Shown here: positions 1,810 to 35,738 of the stretch, piece after piece
Layout: every line of letters starts with the position of its first letter
Position numbering within the stretch: position 1 is the stretch's first letter
From: Diadema setosum
Taxonomy: Eukaryota; Echinodermata; Echinoidea; Diadematoida; Diadematidae
Reading direction: 5' to 3'
Assembly: GCF_964275005.1 (NCBI RefSeq)
Contig: NC_092700.1
Span: 17,827,649 to 17,891,648 of the forward strand
Length of the DNA: 64,000 nucleotides
Position numbers and translations under genes: made by a program
The notes under the pieces: generated by a model
Database searches by the model: none
Seen by the model: the letters and a program-made list of their open reading frames with translations, nothing else
Told to the model about the DNA's origin: nothing

Positions 1810-4800
1810 CAAAACATGGTTGAGCCACATAGGAAAATATTCATCCAGCTCCTTGGGAAAGACTAGCTGCCTGTCGATGGACCATAGTGACCAGAACATG
1901 CTGACAACCACCTGATGAAAATCCAAGAGGTTGTGAAGATTGCAACAATACAGTAATAAATGTCCACATCAACAACCAAGCATGACGACCTACAGAAAAT
2001 ACAGATCTATGAAGTGTGCAGGGTAAACTACTTTCAATTTGATAGGGTGCAATCATTGAACACCAATGCCCTTACTTGAGTAACAGAACAAACTAACCTA
2101 AAAAGATTTTGTGTATGATGGAAGAGGGTCTGTCAAAGATATGTGATATCAGAATTTAACCCTAATCAGGCTGGGGGGGGGGGGGGGGGGGGCGGAATCC
2201 GCCCCCCCTCGACGTTTCGCGCAATATCTTCGCAAAACGATAAGCTCCCACCGCGATGTTTCATGACTTTTTTCTTTCAAGTATCGCGCAACTTTTGAGA
2301 CCCAAATTGTTGCGCCCGCGCGTACCGTTTTGACGCGACGCCCGTTCGAAAAAAATTTGTCAACCCCAAAATTGCTCCAAAACGTGATTTTGTGTACAAA
2401 TCCAATGCAAATTGTGTTTTTTCAATTAATTCACATAAAAATTCATATCTTCACTTAGAATGGCCGAAATTAATTTATTTTAGCATAATAATGCTTTGAA
2501 AAATGTCTGTGTCAAATTTTGGCCAAAAATCAAACAAAAACAAAAGGTCAAAAAACAATGAAATACATAAGAAATTCAAAAAACAATAAAATACATAAGA
2601 AATTAATTTCGATACAGATTTTTTTTTATCCTAAGTCTCAGGAGAATGATACAAGAAACATTTTTAAAAAGAAATTAGCTTAATTGGAGCATAAATAAGT
2701 GATTTAGATCCCAAAACTGATTTTATGCATAAATTACAATAATTAATTAATATAAAATATAAGAAAAAATTTTCGGAGAAAGCAACCATACATTTTGATA
2801 GAATACGTCGCGGGCGTCGCGTGTGCCGATTTTCGGCGCGATCGCGCGTTCCATAGGCGAGATCTGAAGGGGGGGCGGAATCCGCCCCCCCCCCCAGATA
2901 TAGCATAGCCAAAAAAGCCCAGCCTGATTAGGGTTAATACAATTTTAAGGAAGTATTGACATCATTTTGCAAAAATTATATCCATCAGTTTGTTACCAAC
3001 AATCCACTGTAAGTGTCTTTTGTGATGTCATGAAGGGAATATGCAGTTATGACTTTATGATTACAGTAACTCCAGTCCAACTCTCGCTGTTCATGCTGAT
3101 GTGCATATGAAGTGTTTGTAAAGCGTGCATGTATTGGTTTTTACACTGACCATGGCCTGCCGGGCCAGGAAGTGGCTAGATCCTGAGCTGTATCTCCTAC
3201 ACACAGGAATCCACACACCAACACCATTGTGATATCACCTAATCAAGGAGCACTACAAACTGATGTCATTCAAACAAACAGACACACACATGCATACGAC
3301 GTATACACAAAACCCAAGCAAGCAACCCCCCCCCCAAAAAAAAAAAAAATACTTATAGGAAACCAAAACCCAAAGAGAAATATGAATTGAGTGAAAGCAG
3401 CAACATTAGTAGAACACATCAGTGAAAGTTTGAGGAAAATCAGACAATCAATGCAAAAGTCATGCATTTTTAAAGTTTTGGTGTTGGAACCACTGGATGA
3501 GGAGACTACTAGAGGTTATGATGTCATGTGCAAACAACAATATAAAGAAAATATAAAGGGAATTCCACAAAAATTCACTTTTGTAGCATAATCAAAGAGC
3601 ACTTGACTAACCGCTTTCAGAAAACATCAATGTCAGTATCAAGTTGGTGGAAGGTGTAATTTTTATGACAAATGAATTTTTGTGGAATTCCCTTCATATT
3701 TTCTTTATATTGTTGTCCACACATACGACATAATCCCTAGTAGTCTCCTCCTCCAACGGTTCCAACACCAAAATGTTTAAAAAATTCATATCTTTTGCAT
3801 CGACTGTTCAATTTTCCTCAAGCTTTCACTGATGTACATTCTACTAATGTTGCTGCTTTCACTCAATCCACATTTTTTTCTCTTTGGGTTTTGGTTTCCT
3901 TTAAAAGCCTGACATGTTTAATAGCACTTGCTAGTTGAGAATATTTGATGAAATGTATTGTGCTGTACACAGTGAGACGTTTGAATGCAATCACATGACT
4001 TCTGATCCTGTTGTGCCTAGATTTAGTTCTATCTCAGAAATCCACTCTAAAATTTTATCAATTTCATAGAGAAAAAAAAATCTCTGCAGAACAGTGTAAA
4101 AAATTATCAAAATTGGATAAGAAATAAGGAAGTTATGACATTCTGAAGTTTCAAAATCTTTCCGATTTCACTTCTTGACCAGTTGTCATGAATACTCAAA
4201 TCAATGTGATGATATCATGCTCTCACAATTTCTCATTCACTTCTATACAAAAATGACAAAAATCTCATATTTCAGCTGTATAGATATAAACTTGCCTAGA
4301 AACAACACAAAATTAAAAAGAACCAATGTTACCAGGTACTCAGAGATATTTTGGTATGGGGATATGCTTTTACCTGTATTGGCTAAAAATAACTTTTTCT
4401 GAATTTCATATATAACATACATGAAAACTTGTGAGGGTATGACATCAACTCTCTCATTTCAATATTATATTCATAATGATTGGTCAAGAAATGTATTTTG
4501 CAAAAATGTGAAATTTCAAACTATTGTGTCTTCTTTATATCTTACCCAATTTTTGTCATTTTTAGAACACTCTGTACGGATTTTTTTCTTCAGGGTTCAT
4601 ACTCTCTCTCATGAATTGAATTCCATGACTTTCCATGACCTTTTTAGCCAGAATTCCATGACCTTTCCATGACTTTTATACAATTTTTTTAATGTTTTTT
4701 TTTTTTAACATATTAGACTGAAAATTAGATCTCGAATCAAAGCAAAGCAAAGGGGGTACCTACACATCTCACACAAACAACAGACAAACTTAAACTTTTA

Positions 4801-7127
4801 TAATTTTTGCAATTCCATGACTTTCCATGACCTTTTGATGAAAATATCAGTTTTTCATGACTTTCAAGGCCTGGAAAAAGACTAATAGCCAAATTCCATG
4901 ACTTTCCAGGTTTTCCATGACCCGTATGAACCCTGTTCTTTCTATCTTCTGGAGGTTTTTTTATTTTTATTTTTTGGGTGGATTTCCTCTTTTCCTCTAT
5001 GAGACTTTTGTTCTGTGTGAAAGGACACATAAACTCCAAAGTGAATTGGGATAATGGGATGTAAAACAGCATAAACCAGCAAAAGTGACTTCTTTCAAAA
5101 TAAGCTCTATGTGGTCTCATGACCATCATAGTAGAACTTTCGCTTATTGTACATTGACTCTTGAACCCCCCCCCCCCCCCCCCCACCCTTGTCCCATCAT
5201 ACACAAAATCTTTTTAGGCTTAATATTAACTTCTAGAAATAACCTTGGTAATGTTCCAGCAGGAAAATGTGCATCAAGTATAGTATCTCAAGCTATGACT
5301 GCAATTTCATCTTGCTGTTCTATCAAAAGTTTCGTAGTTCAGCTGATAATATGATGTACACTATTCCCAGAGACTTACCAATGCTATGGGAAAGGCCACA
5401 GCACACAGAAACCAATCTCTGATGGCGATGAGGTATTTTGTCACAGAGCTCTTATTGTCACGGGTCACAAGATCCACTACATCCGTGAAGAAGGAAAAGA
5501 AGAAGTAGAACATCTGGAAGAACTGTGGGAAGACAAAAATAACATGGCATGAGGAAAATAATCTTCCATCATCAGAAATTCAAACACAGTGGCCCGAATT
5601 CACGAAGGTGGTACAAATAAAACCATGGTTTAAACCATGGACAAAAACCACGGAGCGCCAAGTGTCGCGTGGAATATTTCGTTACGAATTCAGTCATTTC
5701 GTCGATGAAATGATTATTTTGTAACGAAATGACATTTTGTATAACTAAATGAACATTTCGTCCACGAAATGATACTTTCGTTAACGAAACGGTAATTTTG
5801 TCGACGAAATGACCAATTTCGTAACGAAATATTCCACGCGACACTTGGCGCTCCATGGTTTTTGTCCATGGTTTAAACCATGGTTTCATTTGTACCACCT
5901 TCGTGAATTCGGGCCAGTGTCTGTAGGACTGTACATGTACAGTACTGGTTGAGGTGGGGATTCATGTTTTGAACATTCCTAAGTGAGATAATGAGAAACC
6001 TCTTATGAAATATGAAAAAGCATGTAATTTCAAGAAGGATTCAACGTTTATTTGATGAAAATTGGTTTTCAAATGGCTGAGGAGGATATCCAAAAAAAAA
6101 AGTGATAATAATAAAAGGCGACAGGCCACGCCTTTTATTAGGATCTCTTTGTTTCACATTGTTTTTGGATATCTCAGCCATTTCAAAACCGTTTTTCATC
6201 AAATAAACTTTTGATACCCCATAGAATTGCATGCTCTTTGACATCTCATAGAGTGGTTTCTGAATATCTCGCAAAACGTTAAAAGCTAAATCCTCACCTC
6301 AACCAGAACTGTACATACCCTTTAAAGCTTTTAACAATACAGAAATTACCGTGTATCTTTCACACTAACCGCAGCAGCGACCCCATACGGACAAATACGT
6401 ACGGAGGTTTACTGTGTTACAGCGCCCCGCGACGGGGTTACTTTCACACATGTATATGTTACTAAACATTTGCTGCACAAACAATTATTTGTGGTAGAGT
6501 AACTAAGGGATCGTAACATTAAAAACTTATGACAAATGCACGTAAGGACAAACCGCAAGTATTGCTCTATTTACACTATACAGTTCCAATCTAACAAAGC
6601 TTTCCTACATGCATTTTTCATTTCATATTTCACTTAAATTTAATAACCTTACACCATACACTGTAGCTAGGGGTAAATCTACCGTACATAGAATCCGCAT
6701 ATAGTAGACCTACATCATATGTAGATTTTACCCAGCCCGCCCTCAGCCTCAGGCCCTATCTTAATTTACTCTAGACAACCTCTAATTCTCTACTACTAGA
6801 TAATGGCATCAACAAACGATATAGGCCTACAAATTTACTTTGTTTTGAGAGTTTCTAGCATAAGTCAACTCATCACCCAACGCAAAAATCAATAATATGG
6901 GACCGTTTTGTTGCCTTTCACGCGTGGCTATCAACGACCTCATCATCACTTACCAGGCACCACATCGTCAAGAATTTCGCGTCGCCTCCAAACTGTCTCT
7001 CTTCTGGACGCATATCAGAGGAATTCAGAGGTGGATACACATACAGGCAATAGTAATAATATGAACAGCCATAATACAGGGAAATAATGGCGTGATACGC
7101 TTTACCGATACCGCTTGCGCTTGCCAT
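1810..7127 (-). CDS. AIG1/ADTRP-like membrane threonine hydrolase, first three exons (3' end outside window)
   Basis: Three minus-strand exons join in phase 0: exon 1 7127-6954 (58 codons), exon 2 5522-5379 (48) and exon 3 1911-1810 (34). Donors are GTAAGT, GTAAGT and GTAAGA; the acceptors end CCCACAG and TTCATCAG. The 140 joined residues follow the androgen-induced gene 1 family: a first membrane span near residues 10-31, FGGDAKFLTMWCL (51-58 begins span 2), FFTDVVDL, LIAIRDWFLCAVAFPIAL, then VFPKELDEYFPMWLNHVL. Family members are multi-pass membrane hydrolases of fatty-acid esters of hydroxy fatty acids. The catalytic Thr of human AIG1 (Thr43 in KFLT) aligns with Thr54. The catalytic His would be the first residue of exon 4, beyond the window edge. 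The ATG has a good context (A at -3, G at +4). Complete proteins of the family have about 230-240 residues, so roughly 60% is visible. AIG1 versus ADTRP cannot be decided here. Confidence 0.88.
2160..2933. mobile_element. piggyBac-like TTAA-target MITE (intron 2 of the AIG1-like gene)
   Basis: It is flanked by TTAA on both sides (2156-2159 and 2934-2937). The terminal inverted repeat CCCTAATCAGGCTGGG ends as CCCAGCCTGATTAGGG. CCC termini at a duplicated TTAA are the hallmark of piggyBac-type elements. Just inside each end lies a G-run, then CGGAATCCG, then a C-run; the left G-run is about 22 nt. There is no transposase frame, so it is non-autonomous. Confidence 0.85.
3357..3900. mobile_element. 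Palindromic TTAA-family MITE (AGGGAACGCAAACCC family), old copy
   Basis: The arms are long inverted repeats starting AGGAAACCAAAACCCAAAGAG on the left and mirrored on the right. The internal sequence (AGCAGCAACATTAGTAGAAC) is shared with 16,260-16,788 and about 35,130-35,690. TTAA follows the right end; the left target copy is eroded next to a C10A14 tract at 3,326-3,349. No protein is encoded. Confidence 0.75.
4080..4590. mobile_element. Diverged inverted-repeat element, unclassified
   Basis: The left part around 'AAAATTGGATAAGAAATAA' is roughly reverse-complementary to the right part around 4,530-4,575. Similarity is partial and no target duplication was recognised. It may be an old MITE. 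Confidence 0.3.
4591..4935. mobile_element. hAT-like MITE with CAGGGTTCATAC termini
   Basis: The ends CAGGGTTCATAC and GTATGAACCCTG are inverted repeats, and the interior carries repeated 'AATTCCATGACTTTCCATGA' in both orientations. A CAGGG terminus is typical of hAT elements. The 8-bp flanks (TTTTTCTT, TTCTTTCT) match only partly. About 345 bp, non-coding. Confidence 0.7.
5166..5184 (+). repeat. Poly-C tract of 19 nt
   Basis: A run of 19 C in intron 2 of the AIG1-like gene, one of many long C or G runs in the window. Confidence 0.9.
5591..5915. mobile_element. Near-perfect palindromic MITE, intron 1 of the AIG1-like gene
   Basis: The ends GGCCCGAATTCACGAAGG and its mirror form inverted arms of about 100 bp that also contain CCATGGTTTAAACCATGG. 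The 3-bp flank AGT is repeated on both sides (5588-5590 and 5916-5918), which would suit a Harbinger-type insertion. The centre consists of repeated CGAAATGA and TCATTTCG words, so the middle is a small foldback array too. No protein is encoded. Confidence 0.75.
5925..6321. mobile_element. TTAA MITE, family 1 (AGGGACTGTACAG termini)
   Basis: The arms are inverted repeats containing CTGGTTGAGGTGGGGATT and 'GGATATCTCAGCCATTTC'. The right end CCCT is followed by TTAA (6322-6325). Other copies lie at 13,672, 23,631, 34,937, 57,978 and 60,801. The left end is slightly altered and stands ten bases from the neighbouring palindromic MITE. Confidence 0.8.
6322..6953. other. Intron 1 (5' part) of the AIG1-like gene, no other feature
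   Basis: AT-rich sequence between a MITE and the exon 1 donor. No exon or classified repeat was seen. Confidence 0.4.
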
Positions 7128-7299
7128 GATTTTGCCGAGGTCACTAGCTCGCATACAGCGTAAATGGCGGCGGATTTTGCTGTGTGTGGTGCAAAGAGAT
7201 TTTCCCCAGTCTCTTTGGTGTGGTGTGATGTTGAGCTTTGATGTGTACTGAGTACAGTATGCACGCAGCATGCAAATTGCGCAATCATACGGATGACCC

Positions 7300-7338
7300 G
7301 GGTAATACCCAAAGAGGGTAACCTCTTTGGTATTACCC
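7300..7338. promoter_or_regulatory. Hairpin upstream of the AIG1-like exon 1
   Basis: GGGTAATACCCAAAGAGG and its near-exact reverse complement are separated by four bases, about 170-210 bp upstream of the proposed ATG at 7127. It lies in the promoter or 5' UTR. Any regulatory role is inference. Confidence 0.35.
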
Positions 7339-7834
7339 AAAAAGATGCTCTTTTATTACCCATGCCCTACACCACGACCTCTGCTTATAGTATCACGTCG
7401 TTTGCCCATCCTGAGAGCTAAAAAATGCCGTCATAATATGCCCATAGCTGATAGACCCATAGGCATTATCATCCACCCCGCTTAGACTGGCAATCCAAAC
7501 CAACGACGACATTTAATAATTTTGTAATATTTGGTATTTATTATCTTATGGATCAAAAATTTATCCTCTAGTGATTGGTCTTGTTGGTTGAAATAGCTTC
7601 AGGTGATTATAGAATATTTTCAGCTATGTCAGAATGTTGGTATTATGTTTGACACTCCATAAAGTACTATTTGCAAAATGACGTCACTTCTATCATGACA
7701 TTTTGCAATGTATTTGCAAAACTAGAGATCCCAGCAGTGCCAGCACTACTTCTGAGAGCGCAGACCTCCGCCAGGCACCTATGATTTCCACCAATGGATC
7801 TTTAATTGTTCTTCCTTTCTTTACTGAGTGTATA
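7339..7834. other. Intergenic or intronic DNA without recognised features
   Basis: No exon or repeat was recognised. If 14,585-14,815 is an alternative first exon, this is intron. Confidence 0.35.
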
Positions 7835-8827
7835 CACTCAGCAAAAATAAAGTAAACACTTTTTCAAGTTCATATTTCTCATAGAAAATTTGGCTAAATT
7901 TTATTATTAATGTTTTATATACCATGTTAAAGGTAATTTAATTGGCTATCAACCTGGTAGTTCAATAAAAAGGTGACTTTACACATACACATTCGTGTTT
8001 TTTTTCTTCCAAAGCACAAAAGTAAAAATTGCAAAAATGGGCAAGTTGTCATTCATATGCGTATGTGCTCTTCCATGTTACAATGACAACAGAGACAATA
8101 AAAAAAAAAAATAAGTTTCAAAAATCATCCTATGATCTCTATAATAATTTTGTAGCCCGCAAAAATGAAAAAAGGCGAAAATTAATGGAGAAAATCAAGA
8201 ATCTTCTGTCAAATCCAAATTCAAATGGCATGAAAGAGGCAATATTAACAAAAATTGTGGAAATTTCACGTTATTTCAAATCAAGAACTTTGAAAATGAT
8301 ACTTGGTTTTTGAATTTGTCTCATGAATTCTTAAATTCCTAAATCAATAGAATGAAATAAAGAAAGTCTGTCCATTTTATCACCTTTGCGGCTTACTCCC
8401 TGTGTCATCTGAAGTTAGATTTGACTGCAAACTCCTATTTTCCCCTTTAGTTTCCCCACTTTGTTTGTGTTTGAGGATATAAAGAGATACAATGGGACGA
8501 AAACTTATTTTTGCTATTACATTCATGTCTCTCATTGTGTTAAATTTGGTCTTCTGTTATCATTGTTATCCTGAAGGGCATTTGCAAATGAACGACAAAA
8601 TGTCAATTTTTGCAATTTTTACTTTTGTGTCTTGAAGGACAAAAATCAATGTATTCACTCATATATGAAATTTCCCTTTGTATCAACCTACCAGGTTGAT
8701 AGCCAATTGAATAAACTTTAATATGGTATATGACACAATGATTTTTATTACAATCTTCTATGAAAAATATATGCTGGAAAAAGTGTTTACTTTCTTCTTC
8801 TTTTTTTTTTTTTTTTTTTGCTGAGTG
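7835..8827. mobile_element. Tc1/mariner-type MITE, about 1 kb
   Basis: The termini CACTCAGCAAAAATAAAGTA and the mirrored TTTTTGCTGAGTG are each flanked by TA (7833-7834, 8828-8829). The arms extend about 200 bp as inverted repeats, including GGCTATCAACCTGGTAG. The 94-codon frame in the middle shows no DDE transposase motif, so the copy is non-autonomous. The right T-run has grown to about 20 nt. Confidence 0.8.
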
Positions 8828-9099
8828 TAATTTATATATTTTTTCTAAAACATGCGCTTTCCTCGCCAGGATAAAGCGCTTTAATGCCATTTTAGGTTTT
8901 TATCACATATATATCAGTGTTCGAATTCGTCTTTAGACGCTCAAGATCAGCAACTCAGCAATCAAATTTCAACTTGCGCCAATCAATTTGACCCTATATA
9001 CGAGCAACGGTATTCGTCAATAGTCATTTAAAGTCGTCCATGCCTAACATCTCCGTTCCTTCGATCGGTCATTCGAAAAGGGATGGTATAAATAGGGCC
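8828..9099. other. Spacer without recognised features
   Basis: No coding or repeat signal was recognised between the mariner-type MITE and the inverted repeat that follows. Confidence 0.35.
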
Positions 9100-10048
9100 T
9101 ATTAGTCCATGGGCCAAGACCCGAAAAATGGGTTGTTGGTACCATCTGAGGTGGCACAACCTTTTTGGTGTCAGTTTGTTTGTCGGGCATAGATATGCTT
9201 ATCAAGCTATGATAGCATTTCCAAATGAGTAGCTTAGTCATAATAAATGAATTTTTAACCAATTTGGTCTCGTTTTTATATCCCTATACTTCTGAATCGA
9301 AACTAAACCGCTATACAAAGAAGAGCACTGCCTCCTTATGTCCACAGGTGTTCTGTTGTAAACGCGGTGCGCTTAGTCTTTATTCAAGGCAGCGAAGGGA
9401 ATATCCAAAGGGTTATGATGTCCACAGCTGTCACGCGGTGCGCTTAGTCTTTATCTAGACCAATGTACCGTTACCATATTTAAAGTTCCTCATAAAAGGG
9501 ATTATCTATACTGTTTTTATACTACCCTATCAACAAATACATCAGTTTTAAACAAAAATCACTCTGTTCATTTACGATATCATTCATTATAATGTATCGT
9601 AGTGTACCGGTACATTGTTTTTGCATTATCTTATATTGTTGGAGGTAAATAAAGCAACATTGGCGTGGTATCAGCGTTTTCACCGTAGCGTTTTCGCTGG
9701 AAAATGATAAATAATTGAAAGATGCGGTAAAATTCACGAGGAATTGCTTTTGTTGTTGTTGTTGGTTTTTTTTTTTTTAGATAAAAGGATATACACTGTA
9801 TCATACGCTTTGGATATTCCCTTCGCCGTCTAGAATAAAGACTAAGCGCTGTGGACATCATAACCTTTGGATATTCCCTTCGCTGCCTTGAATAAAGACT
9901 AAGCGCACCGCGTTTACAACAGAACACCTGTGAACATACCACAGGGCTGCATTTTACAGCTCTATGGAACATACAGAAGACAGTGCTCTTCTTTGTATAG
10001 CGGTTAGTTTCGATTCAGAAGTATAGGGATATAACAACGAGACCCAAC

Positions 10049-13000
10049 GGCGTAAATCCATACTGAGGAGTGGGGGGGATGGTCACCATCACCACGATTA
10101 CAAGCCCATAACCGGACCGGCGCAACCTTTTTTTTTTTTGGGGGGGGGGGGGGTGGGAGGGGGTGGGGGGGGGGAAGAAGCTTTGTGCCCCCCTCCCCCC
10201 CCCCCCCCCACACACACACTCACTTTACAGGGATCGGATGCCCCACTCTTTTGCATGAAATATAAAGTGGGAGAAAAGTACTGGCAGCAACAACATAAAG
10301 ACTTTTTGTTCTTGTTGCTTTTTTTTTTTTTTTTTTTTTTTGCTTGTCAGACGACTTTCGGCGGAAAATCAGACCTTAAAAGTATGAAAACATTTTTTTT
10401 TTTGGAAATATCTGTGAGAGGGAGCGGAAGGACCGAACGGGGGAAGGGTGTGTATGGGGGGGGGGGGGGGTATCCCTCTCCCACACGAGGAAGATTTTGC
10501 ATTTTCAGACCTGAAATTCAGCGATCTGGTGCTCACTTGTGGTGAAAATTTTGTTTTCTTTTCTTAAAAAAAACAATAAGAAAATGAAATATTCACAATA
10601 TATTATTGAATGACAAAATCGTGGTATTTCAGCCCTTGCTGTGCGACATCACTGTGAAGGCCTACTAAATAATGGGACCTATCATCGGCGTATAAATAGA
10701 CAGGATTTGATCTTAGGAGGAGCGGTTATGTGAGGGAACGAATCAAGCGAGGGGGGAGGGTATGGTAGGGGGTTTCCCCCTCCTACGGTGAAATCTCTTT
10801 GCGTTGAAAATTTTGACATTTTTCAGTCCAAAAAAAACTGCCGTTTGTAGCTATATTCTTCGCTTTGGAAATTAAGGGGGGGGCACACCAGGCGCAACTG
10901 CTGTCAATCACTGGCAGCAACATCAGGAGAATGGCATAGCGATTAAATGCGAGCGAGCGGAGCGAGCGAGCATGAAAATTTTAACATTTTACAGTCTAAA
11001 AACTGCCGTTTGTAGCTGTACTTTTTCGCTTTGGAAATTAAGGGGGCCGCATCAGGCGCAACTGCTGGCAATTACTGGCAGCAACATCGGGAGAATGGCA
11101 TAGCAGTTAAATGCGAGCGAGCGGGGCGAGCGAGCTTGAAAATTTTGACATTTTACAGTCCAAAGACTGCCGTTTGTGGATGTATTTTTTCGCTTTGGAA
11201 ATTATGGGGGCACACCGGGCGCAACTGCCAGCAATGGGGCAGCAACATCAGAATGGCATAACGATTAAATGCGAGCGAGCGAAGCGAGTGAGCCTGAAAA
11301 TTTTGATATTTTACAGTCCCACATGTCCTCTGTGGCTGTACTAGTATTTTTTCGCTTTGGAAATTAAGGGGGGGGGGGGCGCACCGGACGAAAACTGCTG
11401 GCAATTACTGGCAGCAACATCAGGAGAATGGCATAATGATTAAAAGCGAGCGAGCGAAGCGAATGAGCTTGAAAATTTTGACATTTTCCAGTCCCAAAAA
11501 CTGTCGTTTGTGGCTGTATTTTTTCGCTTTGGAAATTAAGGGGGCGCACCGGGCAAAAACTGTTGGCACTTACTGGCAGCAACATCAGGAGAATGGCATA
11601 ATGATTAATGGGAGCGAGCTAAGCGAGCGAGCTTCAAAATTTTGACATGCAGTCCAAAAACTGCCGTTTGTAGCTATATTTTTCGCGTTGGAAATTAAGG
11701 GGGTACACCGGGCGAAAACTGCGGGCAATTACTGGCAGCAACATCAGGAGAATGGAATGATAATTAAATGCGAGCGAGCTTCAAAAATTTGACATTTTAC
11801 AGTCCCCAAACTGCCGTTTGTAGCTATATTTTTCGCTTTGGAAATTAAGGGGGCGCACCGGGCGAAAACTGCTGGCAATTACTGGCAGCAACATCAGGAG
11901 AATGGAATAATAATTAAATGCGAGCGAGCGAAGCGAGCGAGCTTCAAAATTTTGACATTTTACAGTCCCCAAACTGCCGTTTGTAGCTATATTTTTCGCT
12001 TTATTTGGAAATTAAGGGGGCGCACCTGCTCACAATCACTGGCAGCAACATCAGGAGAATGGCATAGCGATTAAATGCGAGCGAGCGGAGCGAGCGAGCT
12101 TGAAAATTTTGACATTATTTTTACAGTCTAAAAACTGCCGTTTGTAGCTATACTTTTTCGCTTTGGAAATTTAGGGGGCATACCGAGTGCAACTGCCGGA
12201 AATTACTGGCAGCAACATCAGGAGAATGGCATAGCGGTTAAATGCGAGCGAGCGGAGCGAGCGAGCTTGAAAATTTTGACATTTTACAGTCCAAAGACTG
12301 CCGTTTGTGGCTGTATTTTTTCGCTTTGGAAATTAAGGGGGCACACCAGGCGCAACTGCCGGCAATTACTGGCAGGAACATCAGGGGAATGGCGTACTGA
12401 TTAAATGCTAGCGAGCGAAGCGAGTGAGCTTGAAAATTTTGACATTTTCCAGTCCTAAAAACTGTCGTTTGTAGCTATATTTTCGCTTTGGAAAATAAGG
12501 GGGGCGCACCGGGTGCACCTGCTGTCAATCACTGGCAGCAACATCAGGAGAATGGCATAGCGGTTAAATGCGAGCGAGCGGAGCGAGCGAGCTTTAAAAT
12601 TTTAAAATTTTACACTCCAAAAACTGCCGTTTGTAGCCATATTTTTCGCTTTTGTTTGTCCCACTTTTATTTTAGAACCACCCCCCCCCCATCGACGCCT
12701 CTATACATATTAGGTTGCTTTTGTTAAGTGACAGATCTGCTGCTCACTCTTTGATAAATTAGGAAATATACGTCTATGTCAAAAGTGTACAAAGTTTATC
12801 CCTTATCCTGTATAGCGGACCTTTTGTATGTTCATGATTGCAATACAACGATCTGATGCATAGTTCTGGCGATATTTGGACAATTTTCCATTAAGAAAGT
12901 TCGAGATTTGTCCTCATCTCGGGAATTGCTTGGGGGATAAATGATTTATCTGTCTAAACACTTCCTTTGGGGCGGGGCAAATGCCCCTTTGCCCCCCCAT

Positions 13001-13519
13001 AGATTCGACGTCCCTGATCTTCCCTTGGTATGCCCATAGATGTATCCTGACTGAGTCATCAGTGACTGTCGTTTCTCAGGAATGATTCAGGAAATGGAGG
13101 GGATTCAGTTATGGCGATAAAGTTGTTGTTATTGTTTGTTTGTATGTTTTCATACATATTTTGCAGATGGTCCCCAGTTACTCGCGTCGTAGCATGTTTA
13201 CATGTAGACCTATAATATTTGACGTTGTCAACGCCTGAGCCATACCTTACAGTGTATGTCGATGTTACTTTCTTCGCGAGCGAGCGCTTGAGAAAATTAT
13301 ACATTCCTACAAGATAGAATACTGTTCAGCTCTGTTACCTGTCTGAAGGCCGGCGTACAAACGACATGCAATATGCCAAAATTGATACAATCACATTTCT
13401 GCTTCCTCCATTTTTTCCCCTCAAAATTCAGGGGGGGGGGGGATGATTGTACAGGCCATCCCCCCCTCCTCCATTTCAGGGGGGGATATATCCCCCCCAT
13501 CCCCCCCGGGATTTACGCC
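10049..13519. mobile_element. Inserted element with GGCGTAAATCC inverted ends carrying a tandem array
   Basis: The ends GGCGTAAATCC and GGATTTACGCC bound a 3.47-kb block that interrupts the right arm of the inverted repeat. The intact left arm shows the approximate empty site (GAGACC followed by AAATTGG in reverse). Contents are G- and C-runs, two T/G homopolymer blocks and the 163-bp array. No transposase was seen. Class unknown. Confidence 0.6.
10795..12660 (+). repeat. Tandem array, about 11 units of about 163 bp
   Basis: The anchor CGCTTTGGAAATTAAG or a close variant recurs near 10,862, 11,027, 11,190, 11,353, 11,525, 11,687, 11,834, 11,997, 12,168, 12,333 and 12,485. Each unit also carries AACATCAGGAGAATGG, a GCGAGCGAGCGAAGCGAGCG block and ATTTTGACATTTTACAGTCC. 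The several 60-80 codon frames here are by-products of the array. The period is not a multiple of three, so no single frame runs through. Confidence 0.9.
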
Positions 13520-13671
13520 CATGCACATTGGTTAAAAATTCATTTACTATGACTAAGCTACTCATTTGGAAATGCTATCATGGCTTGATAAGCATATCTA
13601 TGCCCGACAAACAAAATGACACCAAAAAGGTTTTGCCACCTCAGATGGTACCAATATCTGGCCTGGCCCAT

Positions 13672-13950
13672 GGACTATATTGTTTTGGTTGAGATTGGGC
13701 TTCAAGTTTCCAACTTTTTATGAGACAGTGAGAAACCTCTTATGAAATATGAAAGAGCATAATAATTCTAAGAGGAATTCAAAGCTTATTTGACGAAAAT
13801 TTGATTTCAAATGGCCGAGATATCCCAAACAAAGTGATCCTAATAAAAAGTGGGACTAACATTGTATTAGGATCAATCTATTTGTTTTATTTGTGTTCGG
13901 ATATCTCTGCCATTTCAAGACCGATTTTCATAAATGCCTATATTTTGGCA
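13672..13950. mobile_element. TTAA MITE family 1, 3'-truncated copy
   Basis: It contains the family words TTTGGTTGAGATTGGG, GAGAAACCTCTTATGAAATA and the mirrored GGATATCTCTGCCATTTC. The right terminus is missing after about 13,950. Confidence 0.65.
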
Positions 13951-14268
13951 TCTCTTGAATCTATCGGCAGAGTGTGGAGAGATTTTCTGTAACAAGTGTT
14001 TCCGTCATACGAATAAAAAGTTCATAGACAGTAATGATACAGCAGAACCCTGTGCGTGAACATTGGTAACACTGAGTAGAGAAGCAAATACCTGGCCGGT
14101 AAGTAAGATCGTGTTATTATGTCCAAATCCACCCTAGTCTGGTAGTATAATAGCCATAAGCTCGCTGCCCATTGCACTTCACATCCCGCATAATCATAAG
14201 CCTCTCGTTTGTGGGAGTGTCTTTCTCCAAGATCCCATACATTATATTGGGCCTAATCTCTGGTAGAT

Positions 14269-14494
14269 ATCTGTTGACTTTTTACATTAAGCAGTGTTAA
14301 GAGGGCTTAATACATCAGGAAGGGGATAAACATATATGTATTTTCCCTCTGGTAAGCTTTTATGCTCTTCAGTGTAAAGATTGATCTCTATATCTGTTGA
14401 CTTTTTACATTAAGCAGTGTTAAGAGGGCTTCATTCAAGAAGAGGATAAACATATTTTCCCTCTGGTAAGCTTTTATGCTGTTCAGTGTAAAGA
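14269..14494 (+). repeat. Direct tandem duplication, period about 123 bp
   Basis: ATCTGTTGACTTTTTACATT through GCTTTTATGCTCTTCAGTGT appears twice, starting at 14,269 and 14,392, with small internal indels. Confidence 0.85.
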
Positions 14495-14584
14495 TTGAGC
14501 TTATCTATTTCACATGAGCTATTTTTTTTTTTTTTTTTAGATTATAAAGACCAGCAGCCTTATCTCAGGTATATTGTCGCTTAC

Positions 14585-14815
14585 CGAACACCACGATGTC
14601 AAATAGCAAGCTTTGTACGTCACACCACCGAACCAGGGAAGCAGACGGATCATTTGGGGCTGCACCAATCCCACTCGGATGAGCAGTGGCGCCACATGAA
14701 GGTAATCGTAGCTCAGCGTACAGGTGTAGTAGCAGAGGATTGCCGCGTGCCACGGGATGCAGAAAGGGGTGCGAACGTCTTCCCCGGGGCCACCACCACC
14801 AGGGAGAACACCCAT
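14585..14815 (-). CDS. AIG1/ADTRP-like first exon, second copy (alternative first exon or separate paralogue)
   Basis: A 77-codon open exon starts at ATG 14815 (context AAAATGG, A at -3 and G at +4) and ends in phase 0 at donor GTAAGC (14,584 leftwards). Codon third positions are GC-rich, unlike the surroundings. The product aligns with exon 1 of the AIG1-like gene at 6,954-7,127: WHAAILCYYTCTLSYDYLHV resembles YHAIISLYYGCSYYYYCLYV, and FGG...YLTSWCS resembles FGG...FLTMWCL. The Thr equivalent to the catalytic Thr43 of human AIG1 is kept (Thr73). No following exon 2 or 3 was found between 7,128 and 14,584, so it could splice to exon 2 at 5,522 or be the remnant of a lost paralogue. Confidence 0.6.
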
Positions 14816-19575: not shown

Positions 19576-19772
19576 AGGGCAATTATCCCCCGAGGGCAAT
19601 TACCTCCCGGCTAAATAGTGGTTAGTGGTAAGCTTAGAGTAAAGATTAAGGTTAAGGTTAGGCTTAGGGCTAGGAGTTTGGGTTAGGGTTAGGATTAGGT
19701 TCAGGATTAGGATTTATAGGATTAGGGTCAGGGGAAGGGTCCGGGGTATATTGCCCAGGGGGAAATTGCCCT
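19576..19772. mobile_element. Short inverted-repeat element with degenerate TTAGGG core
   Basis: The ends AGGGCAATTATCCCCC and GGGGGAAATTGCCCT are inverted. The core (19,640-19,735) is a degenerate run of TTAGGG/TTAGGATT. A 9-bp direct repeat GCTTTCGGC stands outside both ends (19,561-19,569 and 19,779-19,787), offset by six or seven bases. No coding capacity. Confidence 0.6.
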
Positions 19773-24015: not shown

Positions 24016-24822
24016 TTAAGGTGGCGTCATTCCCAAAACATCGTAATCGTCTCTTTCCAAATATCAGAATAAGATCATTCCAACCATTGACGCTTTCAGT
24101 GTCACATTTAATTTCCCGTCTATAGGTATACAGTCTGTCCCCCCCCCAAAAAAAAAAAAAAAAAATTACAACGGGACCCTCCGCAATGATATCTTTAAAA
24201 ATAGAGATTCAATCCACATACAAATTCAGGGTATGAAACTGTAACTCATTGCCCACATCTTACAGAAAACCCCATTCGATTTGCTGCAGTAGTCAAAGAG
24301 AAATGAGGAATTTTGTAGAGGATGTCGAAGAATCTCTTCCCTCCAAGTTCTGTCTATTGTATTCACACACAAAAGCATCAAAGTGCTAAACTTGGAAGAA
24401 TCAGACTCATGACATGCTTTACAACTTTTCATATTTCTCTGTGACCGCTTAACCAAATTGAATGGGGGTTTTCTGCTAAATAGAGCTAAGACGTTATATT
24501 TTAAGACCCTGAAGTAGCATTTAGACAGTTTTATCATATTGGGTGTTATCAATGCGAAAATTTGACTGTATTTTTTGGGACATACTCTAGTGTGAGAAAT
24601 TAGTGCACATTTGATTCATTGACACAAAAAGGGTTAAACAGGGGCATATCATAACAGCTATATCACAAGAAGTGGCAGAAAAAACTCGAATCAGTCAAAC
24701 CTGAGAAACAAGAGCTTATAATTTTGGATCGATTAAAGCCTATTTAAAACAAGCAAGGCGGAAAAAAGTCTTTGAATGTGTGTCCTACACAGAAATAGGC
24801 TGCTAATATGCTTCACTTCTTT
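24016..24822. other. Duplicated flank of GPCR-A1, no gene
   Basis: Non-coding DNA shared in part with unit 2 (44,400-44,480 and 45,575-45,810). Contains the C9A18 block at 24,139-24,165. Confidence 0.5.
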
Positions 24823-25175
24823 GTTTGTTTGTTTGTTTGTTTGTTAATTTCCATCTGCGAAGATGGCTGGATAGCCCATATTCAGCTACGTTAAGCTGGT
24901 CTTCCATGGGGTCCAGTTGGATGTGAGGTGGGACCACTTCACCGGGTTAGACACCCTGCTCTTTGCGATGAATGAATGAAGCGGGATCTTTTACGTGCAT
25001 GAGTTATTACTCTCTCATACACGGGACCTCCATTTTATGTCCTATCCGAGGGACAGAGTGTTTTGCCTCTTGCTAGAGGGGACGGTATGTTTACACACAA
25101 CATTGCTCAGTCCAGACTCGGGTTCGAACCCGGGCCGCGTGATCGTTAGGCAGACGCGCTACCGACTGAGCCAAC
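24823..25175 (-). mobile_element. tRNA-derived SINE
   Basis: Read on the minus strand, a tRNA-like head holds an A box TGGCTCAGTCGG (25,162-25,173) and a B box GGTTCGAACCC (25,121-25,131). A body of about 280 bp follows, including CGTAAAAGATCCCGCTTCA, and then a (CAAA)n tail at 24,823-24,843. RNA polymerase III would transcribe leftwards. Unit 2 lacks it (45,798-45,815 reads through). It is not a functional tRNA gene because the body continues without a tRNA 3' end. Confidence 0.88.
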
Positions 25176-25607
25176 TCATCAAAAGTATAATGCACCCTGA
25201 TTACTTATGTTGACATTTCTTTCCTGTCATTAACATTAAGCATATGCAAGTATGCTTTTCTGATTATGTAGAAATGGAGAAAAGTTATTGAACTTGAACT
25301 TTAGGCTTAACATAAATGGTGATGTGGAGAAAAATCTGTCAACAGTTGTCATAATGTCGCCGTAAGTCTGAACCCAGGTGATCAAAAATAGTTTCCCTTA
25401 CGTAGCAACGTCTGAAAATATAATGTAACATATGCACATTTTCCGTTACTGCTTCTATATACTGAAGCTACTGAAAATCGTAAGAAGTCGAACATTTTCT
25501 TGCACAAATCCTACCTCAAGTCTGAATGCATTATTTAGCATTCCCCATACCGAACAATGCCAAATTTGACAATAATTCATTATCAAAGCGCACCAGATTC
25601 CAGCTCC

Positions 25608-25803
25608 TTTTTTTTTTTGTAAAGTAACTTTCATTGTTCTGTAAACTGTTTAATGACGTGTTTTAAGTTGATATATATGTAATTTTCTTCTTTTGTATTG
25701 TGTATTCTTACACATGTATAATCTGTCTTTTCTCATTTCTAAAAGCGCTTAGAGACTTGAATGTAATTTGCGCTCTATAAAAATGGTTTATTATTATTAT
25801 TTT
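25608..25803 (+). mobile_element. Retroposon 3'-end fragment with (ATT)n tail
   Basis: The 3' part, AAAGCGCTTAGAGACTTGAA and TGCGCTCTATAAAAATGG, resembles the common 3' end of L2/CR1-type LINEs and their SINE partners. It ends in four ATT repeats. Unit 2 has the uninterrupted site near 46,222-46,235 (CTCCTTTTCCACC). Confidence 0.65.
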
Positions 25804-26702
25804 CTACACACTTGCCCCCTATTTGTAGAGCTTGGAATCTTGTAATCATAGTATACACCGATTTAATTGATCTGGCATGGTTGTAATTGTGCTACAAATT
25901 GTAAAATTTGATTTATTGATCCCGTTGCTCGTGGAAACCAGAGAGCCTGTCTAGGAGTGCCTATAATGAGGCAAAACTATAATGCATACTGACTGGACTC
26001 CAAGCCTTGAAATACATTTAGTAGAAGCAGATGCATAAATGGATAAGAGGTCTTCAGAGAAAATATTCTCATTAAAATGCACTAATAGCTTTGTCTGATT
26101 TGCTTATTAAAAAGTGGCTCTCAAGAGAAATAAGATAACAGTTCATATTTCATGCATTTATACTTTCAGAATCCTGAAATAGTCGAAAACGTTAGAACTG
26201 GTATACGCTTTATTTCCCTCCTTGCATCGGTAATTAAAGAAATCGAAATGTATGATGCATCATGATATTTGGAACTCATTAAAGACTAGGGATTGCTTTC
26301 AGGAAGTTGAGATGACGATGTATCTCTTTTACATTATTTGCGAATAGGCAAGTACAAATATGGGTAGCCAGTTTACTTTTGTGCGTGCATTTTTTTTTTA
26401 TTCTCGCTTAGCCTGTATTATTTTGTTTGACTTGCTTCGTGAATATTGACCCATTACGCCCTCCCTTAATACAGTCACCTTTTGACTTTGGCAGGCCATA
26501 AAACCAACCCGGATCTTTGTCGCGTTATTTACCAGCGATTTCTTGATGATATTTATTCATGATTACGAAATATCGAACGTAGGGTACTCACGGTTAGATA
26601 CGTTCACTTCTGAGGAATATGTATATGTAGGCTGTCATTCATCAAAATTAATATCTAAAGCAAATCTACATATGACGAATTGTCCATCATGCATTACACC
26701 AG

Positions 26703-26850
26703 GGAGGAGGGGGGGGGGCATTTCATCAAGCACTTTGTCCGACAAAGTTGTCAGACAAATTTAATCTCAGCCAATCAGATGCAAGGATTTTATTAGCTTG
26801 TAACGGTTCGTCAGAAAAATATTCGATCAAAACGCTTCATGAAATGCCCT
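26703..26850. mobile_element. Short MITE with GGGCATTTCATCAAGC ends, unit 1 only
   Basis: Inverted ends GGGCATTTCATCAAGC and GCTTCATGAAATGCCC flank about 110 bp. CAG occurs on both sides (26,700-26,702 and 26,851-26,853), and unit 2 reads ACACCAGTTCGTATTC at this point (about 47,455-47,470), a single CAG. Confidence 0.75.
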
Positions 26851-27073
26851 CAGTTCGTATTCTGTCACCTTTCATCATACAATGTCATATCAGTTGCATA
26901 ATAGGCTCACATAACTAAATAATTATGTGTAATGCCAACACCCTGAGTATGGCATAGTAGAAATTTGGTTTGATCTTGTAATGATGTTCTTTGCCGCGAT
27001 GTGTTGAGTGTTGTTGTTTCATCTTTGCAGATTCTAAATCACTAAAGCCGGCGCCTGGGAACATCATCTCCCG

Positions 27074-28417
27074 ATGGAGTCGGAGGGCATTTCAGTTCCA
27101 ACAAGCACGTTGCCGATGCAAACGGGCCCCCAGTTGTTCGAGTTCAACGACTACACCCAGCGAATAATCATTGCGGTCGTTGTTGGTGTGGTATTCCTTC
27201 TCGGCACCTCGGGCAACGGTCTCGTCATCCTCGCCGTTCTGCTCTCCAAAAAGTTGCAATCGTCGACCAACTGGTTCGTCGTCAACCTCGCTTGCGCAGA
27301 CCTGTTCACATGCCTCTGCTTGCCTTTCAACATAGTGGCCTTGCTGAGCCGCGACGGATGGCCACTTCCCGACTGGATCTGCGCCGCAGCTTCGGCCGTG
27401 ACTCTTACGTGCCTCGGTGCTAGCGTTATGACCCTGGCGCTAATTGCCTACAATCGATGGTATCTTCTCACGCAACCACCGGCAAAGTTCCAGAAACTGT
27501 ACACAAAGGGCAAGATAATGGTGATGGTGATCGCTGCATGGATGTACCCCTTTCTGCTTGTGATAGTGCCGCATTTTGCGGGACTCGGAAAGCTGGGTTA
27601 CTCCAATGAGTACAAAACATGCACGCAGGATACATCCTTGCCTACATCAGAGTTCTACAGCCTGCTAGCCGGTGTTATGGCCATCATACCCGTATTCCTC
27701 GCCGTGGTGATCATCTACGTAAGAATCTACCGCTTCGTCACAAAGCAGATGAAACACATGTCTACGTTGAGGGAGACTGGTCCCGCGAGTTCGGGGACGC
27801 GGTCTGCTATTGCTGTGGAAATGAATTCCTCAGAAGTTACTTCAGATGCTGCAAGCACGACGACAACTAAAGCGCCCTCAAGTAAAAGTCTCGCCACTCT
27901 GAATAGCGATCTCGACTCCTCTCAACTCAGCCTCCCTCCACCACTCGGTGAAACTCTGAGCGAGGCAGATGTGGAACCGAAGCCAGATGATACCAACGCT
28001 CCTGATCAAAGCTCAAGGAGAAGTACAGAAGGCAATTCCAACCCTTCAAATTCCGCAGCAGCAGATCCGACGCCGCCACCCAAACAGGATAAGCGATCAT
28101 CAGTAGGAAATCCGAAGGCGTCTACTAGCAAACCAGCAGCCTCTAAACTAGAACGTCACCATGTCCGTGTAACCAAGAGACTTGCAGTAGTTGTGGTTGC
28201 CTTCTTCATCTGCCTGTTGCCTTTCGGCGTTAGCGTCGCTGTTCCGCCGAGCGATCCAGGAATCCCCTGGACAGGTCTGCTCGTTTCTCTTAACAGCTGC
28301 ATTAACCCAATGATATACGCAAGGACCATGCCCGATTTTCGAAAAGTGATGGGGTGCATCGTTCGCTGCTCCTGTACGAGTATTCCTCAACCTGTAAGCT
28401 GCATAAGACGGCATTAG
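27074..28417 (+). CDS. Class A GPCR, receptor A1 (447 aa)
   Basis: Seven-transmembrane rhodopsin-family receptor at the plasma membrane. Visible landmarks: TM1 about 31-56 with GN (47-48), TM2 with Asp76 in NLACADL, Cys103 at the top of TM3, NRW (127-129) instead of DRY, ECL2 Cys183, TM5 about 196-218, a Ser/Thr-rich third intracellular loop of about 140 residues (222-365), TM6 with CLLPF in place of CWxP, and NPMIY (411-415) in TM7. The tail has several Cys residues that could be palmitoylated. The coding exon follows an acceptor (CATCTTTGCAG, ends 27,030), so at least one upstream non-coding exon exists. The ATG is chosen because A2 has the same start context. B1 is a related receptor 3.1 kb downstream. 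It most resembles melatonin/GPR84/moody-type receptors; ligand unknown. Confidence 0.93.
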   Translation: MESEGISVPTSTLPMQTGPQLFEFNDYTQRIIIAVVVGVVFLLGTSGNGLVILAVLLSKKLQSSTNWFVVNLACADLFTCLCLPFNIVALLSRDGWPLPDWICAAASAVTLTCLGASVMTLALIAYNRWYLLTQPPAKFQKLYTKGKIMVMVIAAWMYPFLLVIVPHFAGLGKLGYSNEYKTCTQDTSLPTSEFYSLLAGVMAIIPVFLAVVIIYVRIYRFVTKQMKHMSTLRETGPASSGTRSAIAVEMNSSEVTSDAASTTTTKAPSSKSLATLNSDLDSSQLSLPPPLGETLSEADVEPKPDDTNAPDQSSRRSTEGNSNPSNSAAADPTPPPKQDKRSSVGNPKASTSKPAASKLERHHVRVTKRLAVVVVAFFICLLPFGVSVAVPPSDPGIPWTGLLVSLNSCINPMIYARTMPDFRKVMGCIVRCSCTSIPQPVSCIRRH

Positions 28418-28799
28418 CATCGAACTTAAGTGATAGAAACGTTCACTGTTCACCAAAGAGTGCAAGAAGACGTCTGATATTTCTGACATTTTTTCGAGTC
28501 TTCTCTTTCATTGATAACTCTACCCTTACATAATACTTGTCACACTCATATCGATTCAGAAGATAACTGATTTTATGCTAGAGTATTACATCAAGGTAAT
28601 ATCAACAGAAATGTAGAATATTCCTATATTACTTTACCAATACATCTTTGGTGCATGCAGTTTGTTTAATGTTATGTACGTGGTATTTACATGTACACAT
28701 GTATGATAAGATCAGAGAATCTGGAACATGGTAAACGTTTTATCATCAAACATCGTGCTTATTAAACATATATTACAGGCTGTAGTATACGTTTAAACC

Positions 28800-28805
28800 A
28801 ATAAA
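28800..28805 (+). promoter_or_regulatory. Candidate polyadenylation signal of GPCR-A1
   Basis: AATAAA about 385 bp past the stop codon. It is conserved at the corresponding place after A2 (49,788-49,793) within matching TTTAAACCAATAAAG. Confidence 0.5.
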
Positions 28806-29260
28806 GTGTCAGTCCATAAAGTGGGATTTATGTATTCACTTTGTCAGAAAGTTTCAACCGGAAAGGAATTTCTCTCAATTGTAAATACAAAACCGACCAA
28901 TTGCGTGAGTCCGTTATGAAGGCTTTTTTTTTTATGATAACAGAGTGACAGAACAGTACTATATATCTCTATAGGTGTCAAGACTGGATGTTTTTCACTC
29001 CCTTTTAATTCAGCTGTAGGAAAAGTGAATGATTCATGTTGCGATATATTCCTAGCACATATACATTAAATGCTGTGCCGTATATCTTTTATACGGCACT
29101 GATTAAACGTACAGGGACATAAGTAAACGCGCACAAGCACGCCCGCATTAGCATACACGAATGCAAATACGTACACATTATCATCATCACAGACAAGGAC
29201 GGACAACTATGGTAACCTTTCTCATATAGCAAAATATTTATTTAGAAATATTAGCTAGCA
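28806..29260. other. Intergenic DNA between GPCR-A1 and the foldback element
   Basis: Largely shared with unit 2 (49,794-50,116). No gene recognised. Confidence 0.45.
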
Positions 29261-29565
29261 AGTCCACGGGTGGCCGTCACGAGACCGAAGCCCACGAGTC
29301 ATACAGCCCGTGAGTTCGTCACTAAGCAAATAAGGTCCATGAGTTCGACAGTAGGTAAAAACATCTCATGAGTTCGACATCACAACACTGGGACTTGCGT
29401 CGGTCTCGTGGACCTTGTTTGCCTAGTGTCGAACTCATGGGCTGTAGGACTCGTGGGCTGTATGCATCGTGGGTTGTATGACTGATGAGCTGTATGACTT
29501 GTGAGCTGTATGACTCATGAGCTGTATGACTCGTGGGTGTCGGTCTCGTGACGTCTCGTGGAATG
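29261..29565. repeat. Foldback element with 16-bp minisatellite arms (unit 1 copy)
   Basis: Outer inverted ends include CGTCACGAGACCGA and the mirrored form. The arms are made of a 16-bp word, GAGTCATACAGCCCAC, on the left and its complement GACTCGTGGGCTGTAT on the right. Here the left arm has about two units and the right about six. The copy in unit 2 (50,117-50,415) shows the opposite imbalance. Confidence 0.75.
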
Positions 29566-31489
29566 ACCCCCTTAGAGTACCGATATGATTGAACTTTTTA
29601 TTTTGTGTATGAGTTATGCAGAGTACATTAAAGAATATCAAATCATAAGTGAATGTCACGCGACTTGTCGACATGAATCACCTATGTCCATGTTTGGCTT
29701 TGTTTGGTGTGTTTGTTTGCATGTTATCCGGAGCCTTTTTGGCCAATATGACCCGAATAGAATGAAAGCTGCTTGGCCTTCGTTAATGAGGAAACTTCAG
29801 AGGGAATTTCGCAAGAAAAAAAGATGCTGTGACACAGCGTGATTTCCCGTGATTTCCTCTCTTACGCACTTTTTCGTCGAGTTCACTGTGACCACGGTGA
29901 CGTAAACAGCTGGGATAGTCAGGGGATTTTTTTTTTCAAACTTCCTTGTCTGTCTGATGAGAATAGCTCATAAAAGAATCTTTCCAACTCGAGGAGAACA
30001 TTTGAAACTTCGATGGACCCTACTGACAACTAGCAGGTAGCCTGACATTTGGTGATCTATAAGGTAGGTTAGAATTTAAAATGTTACCTCATGGCGAGTT
30101 CATTTCTGTCATCGTACGACGTGGATGAGCATGACGAGTGATCAGTAAAGTAAACCTGCACACTTTCCTGGCTCAGATAATATATCTCTCTAAGCTGTCA
30201 GGGATAGACTCTTCCATCTATTATTATCGTCGACTTTGGGTTAACTTACAGCTTATTTCAATCCGTCGGATAATGACACGTCAACTGACTATGTTCTTTC
30301 TCACTATTTCTTTCCGTATATCAAAATCGTCAGAATCGTAAATGATCCTTAGGACGGGACCATGTTCTGCATAACTATGTTATTTAGTGTTATATATCGT
30401 GATAATGATACATCCACTGTTAAAACACCCACCTTTGAGCTAGATATTGGTGCAAATCAGAAAATGACATGTAGAACATCTATATGCATCATGTTTGTAA
30501 ATTACATACACGTATGTCGGTCTGTAGAGTAGTTTGATCGTCTGTCCCATGAGATAAGCTAAAATGTGTTGCATACTTTCCGGTTAAGATTTAGGAGAGT
30601 TGAACAATTGCGCAGGAAAAGCTTTTCCGGTAAAGGGTTTCTACAAGTATTGAAGTCAAGCATGACACGTTACTCATTCAGGATATTTGGATTTTATTGG
30701 ATTTATGTGAAGGTAATACCGCACTGCTGTAACGAGGAATATTCTGTCATGCCGTTAGAGCTAAAGGGACACTGTGTTTGACACACGCTGGAAGATTTGA
30801 AAAGTAACTGTTGCCATATCCTGTTACGTCTTGGTCTGCCATTTCCGTTTTGGTCTGCAAACGTATAATCACCGCATAATGGCACGTAACATGTCTCATT
30901 ATTGTTTGCTTCACATAGGTATATTCCAACACAATATTACGGCGGGTATATGCTCACGGTGCAATTATTGCTAAAGACATGCAAGACACGGAACAACGCG
31001 GCAAACACGGAATTCTAACAGTAGACCAATTACCTCTCTGTTTTGAATGCTGGTGCTGCAAAGTTTCACTTTTTTTGTTTCATGGAGTAGGGGGGGGGGG
31101 TAGTTTGAAATCATTTTTAATACTACATGTATTGCTGGACACAATCATATTAGTAAATATTTATCAAACTTTATATCACGCAATGGGTAATTGCAGAAGA
31201 TTCCTTCGTGTGCAAATCGCAACAATTATTCCATTCAGTAGGCTTATAGCTTACAACAATATTATGACTCTCAACCTCATTGGCAACACTTTGTAACGCA
31301 AATAAGATAGTGCTTCACCCTTTGAAACATTTCAGTCCAGGTCAGTTTAGTTTGATTTTATTTTTGCATTTTTCTACGGAAATTATGACACGTGTATCTG
31401 ACAACAACAAGAACAACAACAACAAAATATTACATTAAACTTCAATAATCATTTTCCGTCCTAACACTGATTTGTGTCAATTTTCCCAG
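29566..31489. other. Upstream region of GPCR-B1, no recognised exon
   Basis: Shared with 50,416-52,990 of unit 2, apart from insertions there. Holds the 14-bp palindrome GGAAAAGCTTTTCC (30,615-30,628). The non-coding first exon and promoter of GPCR-B1 should lie in or before it, but were not located. Confidence 0.45.
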
Positions 31490-31520
31490 CTTCGCAAACA
31501 TAGAACAATCAGAAGGAAAG

Positions 31521-32792: not shown

Positions 32793-34225
32793 GGGTCGGC
32801 TTTCGTTTGAGTTTGATTTATTTTCATATCTCTCAAAGATGATGACTTTAACAAAAGATGAAATTGTCTAATCTCTCAAACTGTCAAAAGTAATACTCAA
32901 TACAAGTGTCGTAAAATGGTCATATTATGTAGATATTGTAGATGTATAAAAAGAGCAGAGAAGAACATGAAGGAAACCTACGAAAAGCTGAAGTTTATAG
33001 GACTTGCATGTTCAAGAAAATATAAGCTCCTATCATCAACACCTGGAGATCGGGATTGATAAAAGATTGACCAAACGAATATCTCTATCATTGCAAACAT
33101 CCACATGGATTCATACACACTCACACACACACACACACACACACTTGGGTAATTTCAATATTTTGGCAAAACCATGAGGTAGAGCAGATAGCTATCTTTT
33201 CGGCTTTGTATTATAATCGGCTCATTTTTGTGACAAGCATTGTCTTCGTTGGGGCAAAACAGAATAGTGGACTGGAATGCGCATTTTCATGGTATAATAG
33301 CATACACACATCATGATATTATAAACGCATGTGTGTGTGTATATACTGCTATATGCAGTTCATTGAGAGGGAACTTAATTGTCTTTCTGTTTGCGTGGGA
33401 TCGCTATGTCTTTGTTTTAGTTTTTACTTCTCTCATGTGTGTAAGTAGGAGGATCCGCATGGAAATAGATGTAAAGATCCAGAGAATGCGATATAATGTA
33501 TTTAGCTATTCTTTCAACAGCGTTGATTTTGTTCATAAATTTACCGTTTGTATCTATACGGTTGGTTAGAAAACGGCTTCAGAACCGTATTCGCGGTACA
33601 CAGATTATAGTATGAATAATATAATGAAAAACGATGTCTGTTAATATTCGACTGCCTTCGTGGAGCTTCACCAATTAAATGTTCGCAAGAACGCGATGAA
33701 CCATTTTGTTTTTGAGGGGCGGGGTAAAATATACAGGTAATATAAGGTATGGGAGGTAGCGATCATCAAAAGGAATATATCTGTTTTGTTGCAAGATAAT
33801 TGGAAGGTATACATTTGTTATATATCTGCGAACTTCTCTATTTTTCGCTGTGAGTGCCAGCTGATTTCAAAGTTTGTTCGAATTGCTTATGAAGTATGAC
33901 CATATGGCATTCTTTGTGAAACTTTCATGTTTCCCACTGTGTTGCTCGCACGGTTGTTACGTCAGATTTACAATGTGATCAAATATTGCGCCTGCTTGGA
34001 GTGCGAATTCGTTTCTGCAGTGTGAGCGTCAAATTAAGATATTTCACGCCATTTTCTCACTTTATCTCTTTATAGAGAAATACGGTTCGTGAACTCGACG
34101 ATTGAATATTACCTATATGGTACTTGTGAGTTGGATATTTGATCATGTGTATGTACTTATGGTACTTATGAATAAACACCAACAGACAGGTTTACATATA
34201 TAGGCCTACATATACCACACACACA

Positions 34226-34227
<2 letters not shown>
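32793..34227. other. 3' flank of GPCR-B1
   Basis: Probably includes the 3' UTR. A (CA)n microsatellite lies near 33,119-33,143. Closely matched in unit 2 (54,294-55,610). No clear AATAAA close to the stop; a conserved GAATAAAC occurs near 34,169. Confidence 0.5.

Positions 34228-34276
<49 letters not shown>
34228..34276 (+). repeat. (TA)n microsatellite
   Basis: About 48 bp of TA. At the matching position in unit 2 a Penelope-like repeat sits inside the TA tract. Confidence 0.95.
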
Positions 34277-34280
<4 letters not shown>

Positions 34281-35090: not shown

Positions 35091-35129
35091 CACTACTCTG
35101 TGTGAACGGACAAGTTCATCTTCATATAA

Positions 35130-35690: not shown

Positions 35691-35738
35691 AGTTTGATTA
35701 TAATGTGAGTAACTTAGTAATTCATTTCCAACCACCAG

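Follow-up and report, generated by a model that had tools for sequence, protein, structure and literature searches.

Does a Far-17a/AIG1-type gene of the sea urchin Diadema setosum possess two alternative first exons, each contributing its own catalytic threonine to one common set of downstream exons? The question is raised by a window of 64,000 nucleotides (the whole stretch of DNA analysed, C16:17,827,649-17,891,648) in an assembly of 913 Mb and 102 contigs. On its minus strand lies a Far-17a/AIG1-type gene with an AIG1-type first exon (near), a second candidate of the same type (far), and then shared exons 2-5, the last two of which lie beyond the window edge.

Gene layout and near-form product

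The exons were located as follows:

6,954-7,127, minus strand: near first exon, 58 codons, phase-0 GTAAGT donor, FGG(5)T
14,585-14,815, minus strand: far candidate first exon, 77 codons, phase-0 GTAAGC donor, FGG(8)T
5,379-5,522, minus strand: shared exon 2 with 48 codons, a strong acceptor and phase 0 on either side
1,810-1,911, minus strand: shared exon 3 with 34 codons and phase 0 on either side; the catalytic His codon comes next and opens exon 4
2.8-5.5 kb before window base 1, minus strand: exons 4 and 5, found by reading past the window start

Exon 4 has the catalytic His as its first codon and is joined to exon 5 in phase 2; exon 5 carries the terminal stop. Together, the near exon and the shared exons encode a complete Far-17a/AIG1 protein of 236 residues. 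It matched Pfam PF04750 with 157.9 bits (cut-off 24.5) over profile positions 19-204 of 206, and its Thr (exon 1) and His (exon 4) aligned with T43/H134 of AIG1 and T47/H131 of ADTRP. The human AIG1 and ADTRP sequences used in the alignments and profiles are taken to represent these proteins. Given the complete reading frame, the Pfam match and the aligned Thr and His, the near exon clearly represents the regular first exon of a complete gene of AIG type. No match was obtained in Rfam at gathering scores and no relative in a scan of prokaryotic genomes. Among solved structures, exons 1-3 had no significant relative, the one match being at chance level (E 0.071). As to the residues themselves, T47 and H131 of ADTRP are named in PMC8123165 and the AIG1 mutants T43A and H134A in PMC11139994; PMC8394805 numbers the His differently.

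These results uphold the assignment to the AIG1 family made in an earlier note on this DNA. The exon-1 coordinates and the phase 0 given there were also correct, as both frames translate as claimed and end at GTAAG donors, and the good ATG context reported for both was confirmed (A at -3 and G at +4 in each). The further claim that both exons keep FGG...LT holds for the motif, which is present in both with the Thr as fifth-last codon; its spacing differs, with five residues between GG and Thr in near and eight in far.

One other Far-17a/AIG1 gene was found in the 913-Mb genome and served for comparison:

C16:11.790-11.804 Mb, plus strand examined upstream: paralogue B, five exons

Similarity of the far exon to the near exon

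Candidate first exons were defined as phase-0 frames of the form ATG...GT[AG] on both strands of the window, which yielded 413 frames of 35-130 codons. With near's own frames set aside, far had the highest score of all against near (63; next independent frame 40). The pattern GG(2-9)[LMIV]T(4) directly at the donor was confined to frames of the near site and the far site. A second candidate set was restricted to 50-100 codons and comprised 133 unique donors after exclusion of the seven out of 140 that overlapped near. Here too, far ranked first against near, and it gave the sole alignment ending at both donors. None of 5,000 shuffles reached the near-far score, corresponding to a Gumbel p of 2.9e-5 per comparison and of approx. 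0.004 after multiplication by 133. Both this value and the extension of the alignment to the two donors argue against far being a chance open frame, that is, no exon but a frame in a GC-richer patch that resembles near.

The sequence context points in the same direction. A GTAAG donor occurred in just six of the 140 candidates, namely near, far and four others divided evenly between receptor ORFs and AT repeats, and the frame-1 codon score of far was third of the 93 candidates outside receptor ORFs; both observations speak against a chance frame. The lead of the far frame over its other five frames was eighth among the same 93, and an RNNATGG start was found in 39 of the 140. The distance from Thr to the donor is kept in far, near and paralogue B, and the exon 1/2 boundary and its phase are identical in all three. 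Searched against the genome, the far exon found itself as a single copy and two weak matches, one with internal stops (E 0.9) and one without (E 1.5). Identity between far and near was 0.56/0.54/0.35 at the three codon positions over 48 codons; we gave this pattern no weight, as choosing the alignment on amino acids favours it. From the other signals we infer homology, and far is probably a real, diverged first exon of AIG type.

Weak profile scores of the far exon

Other searches were less favourable to far, and its weak profile scores, described here, fit a chance frame. A phmmer search from near to far gave 9.4 bits (E 0.23) and was outranked by an unrelated segment at 12.3 bits; in the opposite direction, 5.8 bits were obtained (E 3.3) and five other segments ranked higher. 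A profile of near, AIG1 and ADTRP scored far at 2.1 bits. With a first-exon profile of near, paralogue B, AIG1 and ADTRP, far was second of 2,832 segments (9.7 bits, E 0.13); when near was left out of this profile, far fell to 2.3 bits and near itself scored 17.4 bits. The score of far against the N-terminus of human AIG1 is at shuffle level, being reached by 27.6% of 2,000 shuffles, and that against the ADTRP N-terminus was reached by 2.65%.

The far exon alone had no Pfam match. Exons 2 and 3 scored 65.1 on their own, 87.8 with near and 71.1 with far. When 25 control exons were placed before exons 2 and 3 instead, Pfam scores ranged from 60.4 to 72.1 and one of the 25 surpassed far, which is compatible with chance. 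Far thus added 6.0 bits to exons 2 and 3, in a match that starts at profile position 36, and this is the gain that one control exceeded. Furthermore, the window contains many long open frames, among them one on the opposite strand that covers the far site as well. Weighed together with the donor-anchored alignment and the codon score, a chance frame is nevertheless unlikely.

The segment 21,290-21,379 (phmmer 12.3 bits) was considered as a third first exon and rejected; its frame continues without GG...LT, and it was not among the donor-aligned candidates.

The spacing of five residues between GG and Thr is shared by near, paralogue B (with GK in place of GG), AIG1 and ADTRP (with GA). Far departs from it with its eight residues, and its active site could accordingly be either altered or impaired.

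One downstream exon set and paralogue B

Profiles of exons 2 and 3 were built from paralogue B and human AIG1 and ADTRP, with the present gene left out. They found the two shared exons at 47.8 and 48.1 bits; therefore, a set that had diverged like those of B or of the human genes should show. In the window, they located each of these exons once, in agreement with the earlier note, which had seen only one of each. Between the two first exons, the best match to any exon 2-5 profile on the minus strand reached only 7.2 bits. The earlier note named exons 2 and 3 belonging to the copy at 14,585 alone as the finding that would count against a shared gene. Neither tblastn or small profiles in the window nor exon-by-exon searches of the whole genome detected such a set.

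In the genome search, the near protein recovered all five exons of its own gene and four of gene B (exons 2-5), with exon 4 of the latter at E 0.045 only, and nothing else at E < 0.2. A genome-wide Pfam search gave three exon matches, all of them in the near/far gene and gene B. By window profiles and genome search together, one constant exon 2-5 set was found at this locus. It has to be considered that the genome searches work exon by exon and score only the best candidates, and that the near-protein search missed the first exon of B; therefore, a negative result from them says little about first exons and more about exons 2-5. The same properties, and the fact that very diverged exons can escape, leave some room for far opening a separate AIG gene with exons 2-5 that exist but were missed. 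Against it stand the profile scores for exons 2 and 3 next to the 7.2 bits of the interval, and the lack of any third set below E 0.2 in a search that recovered all five exons here and four of B, so that a separate gene is very improbable.

Paralogue B has the five-exon layout and the exon 1/2 boundary of the near/far gene, but only one first exon was found in the 44 kb upstream of it on the plus strand. These 44 kb served as a positive control, in which the top match of near was the first exon of B (72) and the top match of far reached 36. Pairwise scores between the first exons were 63 for far and near, 31 for far and B and 72 for near and B. This pattern fits a local duplicate of the first exon that has diverged fast.

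The stronger divergence of far from B, compared with that of near from B, would also fit an orphan. Such an exon would have belonged to a tandem AIG paralogue that has since been lost, or would be a stray duplicate of exon 1; it would have no exons 2-5 of its own and be disused. That no such set was found in the window or the genome, that the conserved GG-to-Thr spacing is broken in far, and that the interval between the first exons is rich in repeats and holds an insert-like block (see below) all suit an orphan. On the other hand, far occupies the homologous position with its frame, start context and donor intact, and the frame is favoured by codon scores, yet a recently orphaned exon could look alike. 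On balance, an orphan appears rather unlikely.

Interval between the first exons and splicing context

Two nested features were recognised in the interval:

9,136-13,654: insert-like block between the first exons, with inverted arms of 131 nt that are 96% complementary
10,804-12,652: tandem array of a 163-bp unit inside the insert-like block

A separate inverted repeat (5,586-5,920) with 137-nt arms, 91% complementary, is located in the intron that separates the near exon from exon 2. When stretches of 400 bp were scored, 32 of 636 were rich in GC and CpG, and neither first exon lies in any of these 32.

As a rule, a downstream variable first exon has no 3' splice site and is hence skipped by transcripts that start upstream. 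An acceptor-like site is present 52 nt before the ATG of near, and its pyrimidine content (12 of 17) is the same as that of the exon 3 acceptor. Through this site, the near exon might be pulled into far transcripts. Joining of the far donor to it, read by eye, would lead to a stop after 11 codons. With the acceptor-like site and this stop, UGT1-like skipping of the near exon is not assured.

Other features of the window

The remaining part of the window contains a tandem segmental duplication, 24,588-36,153 versus 45,572-59,631, the pieces of which are approx. 80-94% identical. Within it are four intronless receptor ORFs of rhodopsin type, arranged as two pairs (Pfam 7tm_1):

27,038-28,414: receptor ORF, Pfam 7tm_1
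31,449-32,789: receptor ORF, Pfam 7tm_1
48,055-49,374: receptor ORF, Pfam 7tm_1
52,950-54,290: receptor ORF, Pfam 7tm_1

In the second copy of the first receptor, approx. 49 bp of the first copy (27,247-27,295) are missing at 48,255 and the frame is shifted, which marks either a pseudogene or an assembly error. Interstitial telomere-like arrays with TTAGGG and GGTTAG units were observed at 19,646-19,711 and 40,340-40,446. A frame of 131 residues on the minus strand (63,586-63,978) had no Pfam match at E 0.001; presumably, it resembles the last membrane spans and the tail of an adhesion-type receptor.

Discussion

The exon anatomy, the phases, the single downstream set found and the complete near frame are direct observations. 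They are consistent with one AIG-L (Far-17a/AIG1) gene that has two alternative first exons and shared exons 2-5 in the manner of a two-member UGT1 locus. This is the reading we prefer, and we regard it as an evenly balanced call. In such a gene, the far exon, 7.5 kb upstream of near, would be a diverged copy of the first exon. A candidate promoter upstream of it would initiate far transcripts, which would skip the near exon and have their phase-0 far donor spliced to exon 2. We infer this promoter, the transcription and splicing of far, and its function. The far form would comprise 255 residues with a new N-terminus, a new first membrane span and new surroundings of the nucleophile, combined with the same His and core. 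The corresponding conceptual protein of 255 residues scored 139.6 bits against Pfam and retains Thr and His.

If promoter choice swapped the nucleophile segment (first span, loop and Thr) in an integral-membrane lipid hydrolase of this kind, two enzymes with a common His half and different roles in substrate use or signalling might result. This seems unlikely for now; isoforms differing in substrate range, as proposed in the earlier note, could be one consequence of it.

FAHFA hydrolase activity is a hallmark of the Far-17a/AIG1 family. Human AIG1 and ADTRP (PF04750) belong to the same family as the near product over nearly the whole profile, with Thr and His in register. What sets the gene described here apart is a probable additional first exon, which is diverged and in which the GG-to-Thr spacing is altered. 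UniProt lists three ADTRP isoforms (PMC8123165). Alternative first exons as such are an arrangement of a known kind. At UGT1, according to PMC1885805, variable first exons are arranged in tandem before a common set of constant exons and code for the acceptor-substrate side, with a proposed catalytic His. If far is used, the likeness to UGT1, as described there, would lie in tandem homologous first exons that carry the substrate side and a catalytic residue in front of one constant set. The differences from the same account are about a dozen first exons versus two, an unrelated enzyme, and an arrangement that is here read from DNA alone. In the literature searched on AIG1/ADTRP, on alternative first exons and promoters, and on AIG1 in echinoderms, no report of variable first exons in the Far-17a/AIG1 family was found.

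If both exons are used, D. setosum would possess two matched enzymes of AIG type whose sole difference is the N-terminus that bears the nucleophile, and the UGT1-type arrangement would be extended to a lipid hydrolase. Such a pair, if true, would offer a direct route to the residues that set substrate choice in this hydrolase family.
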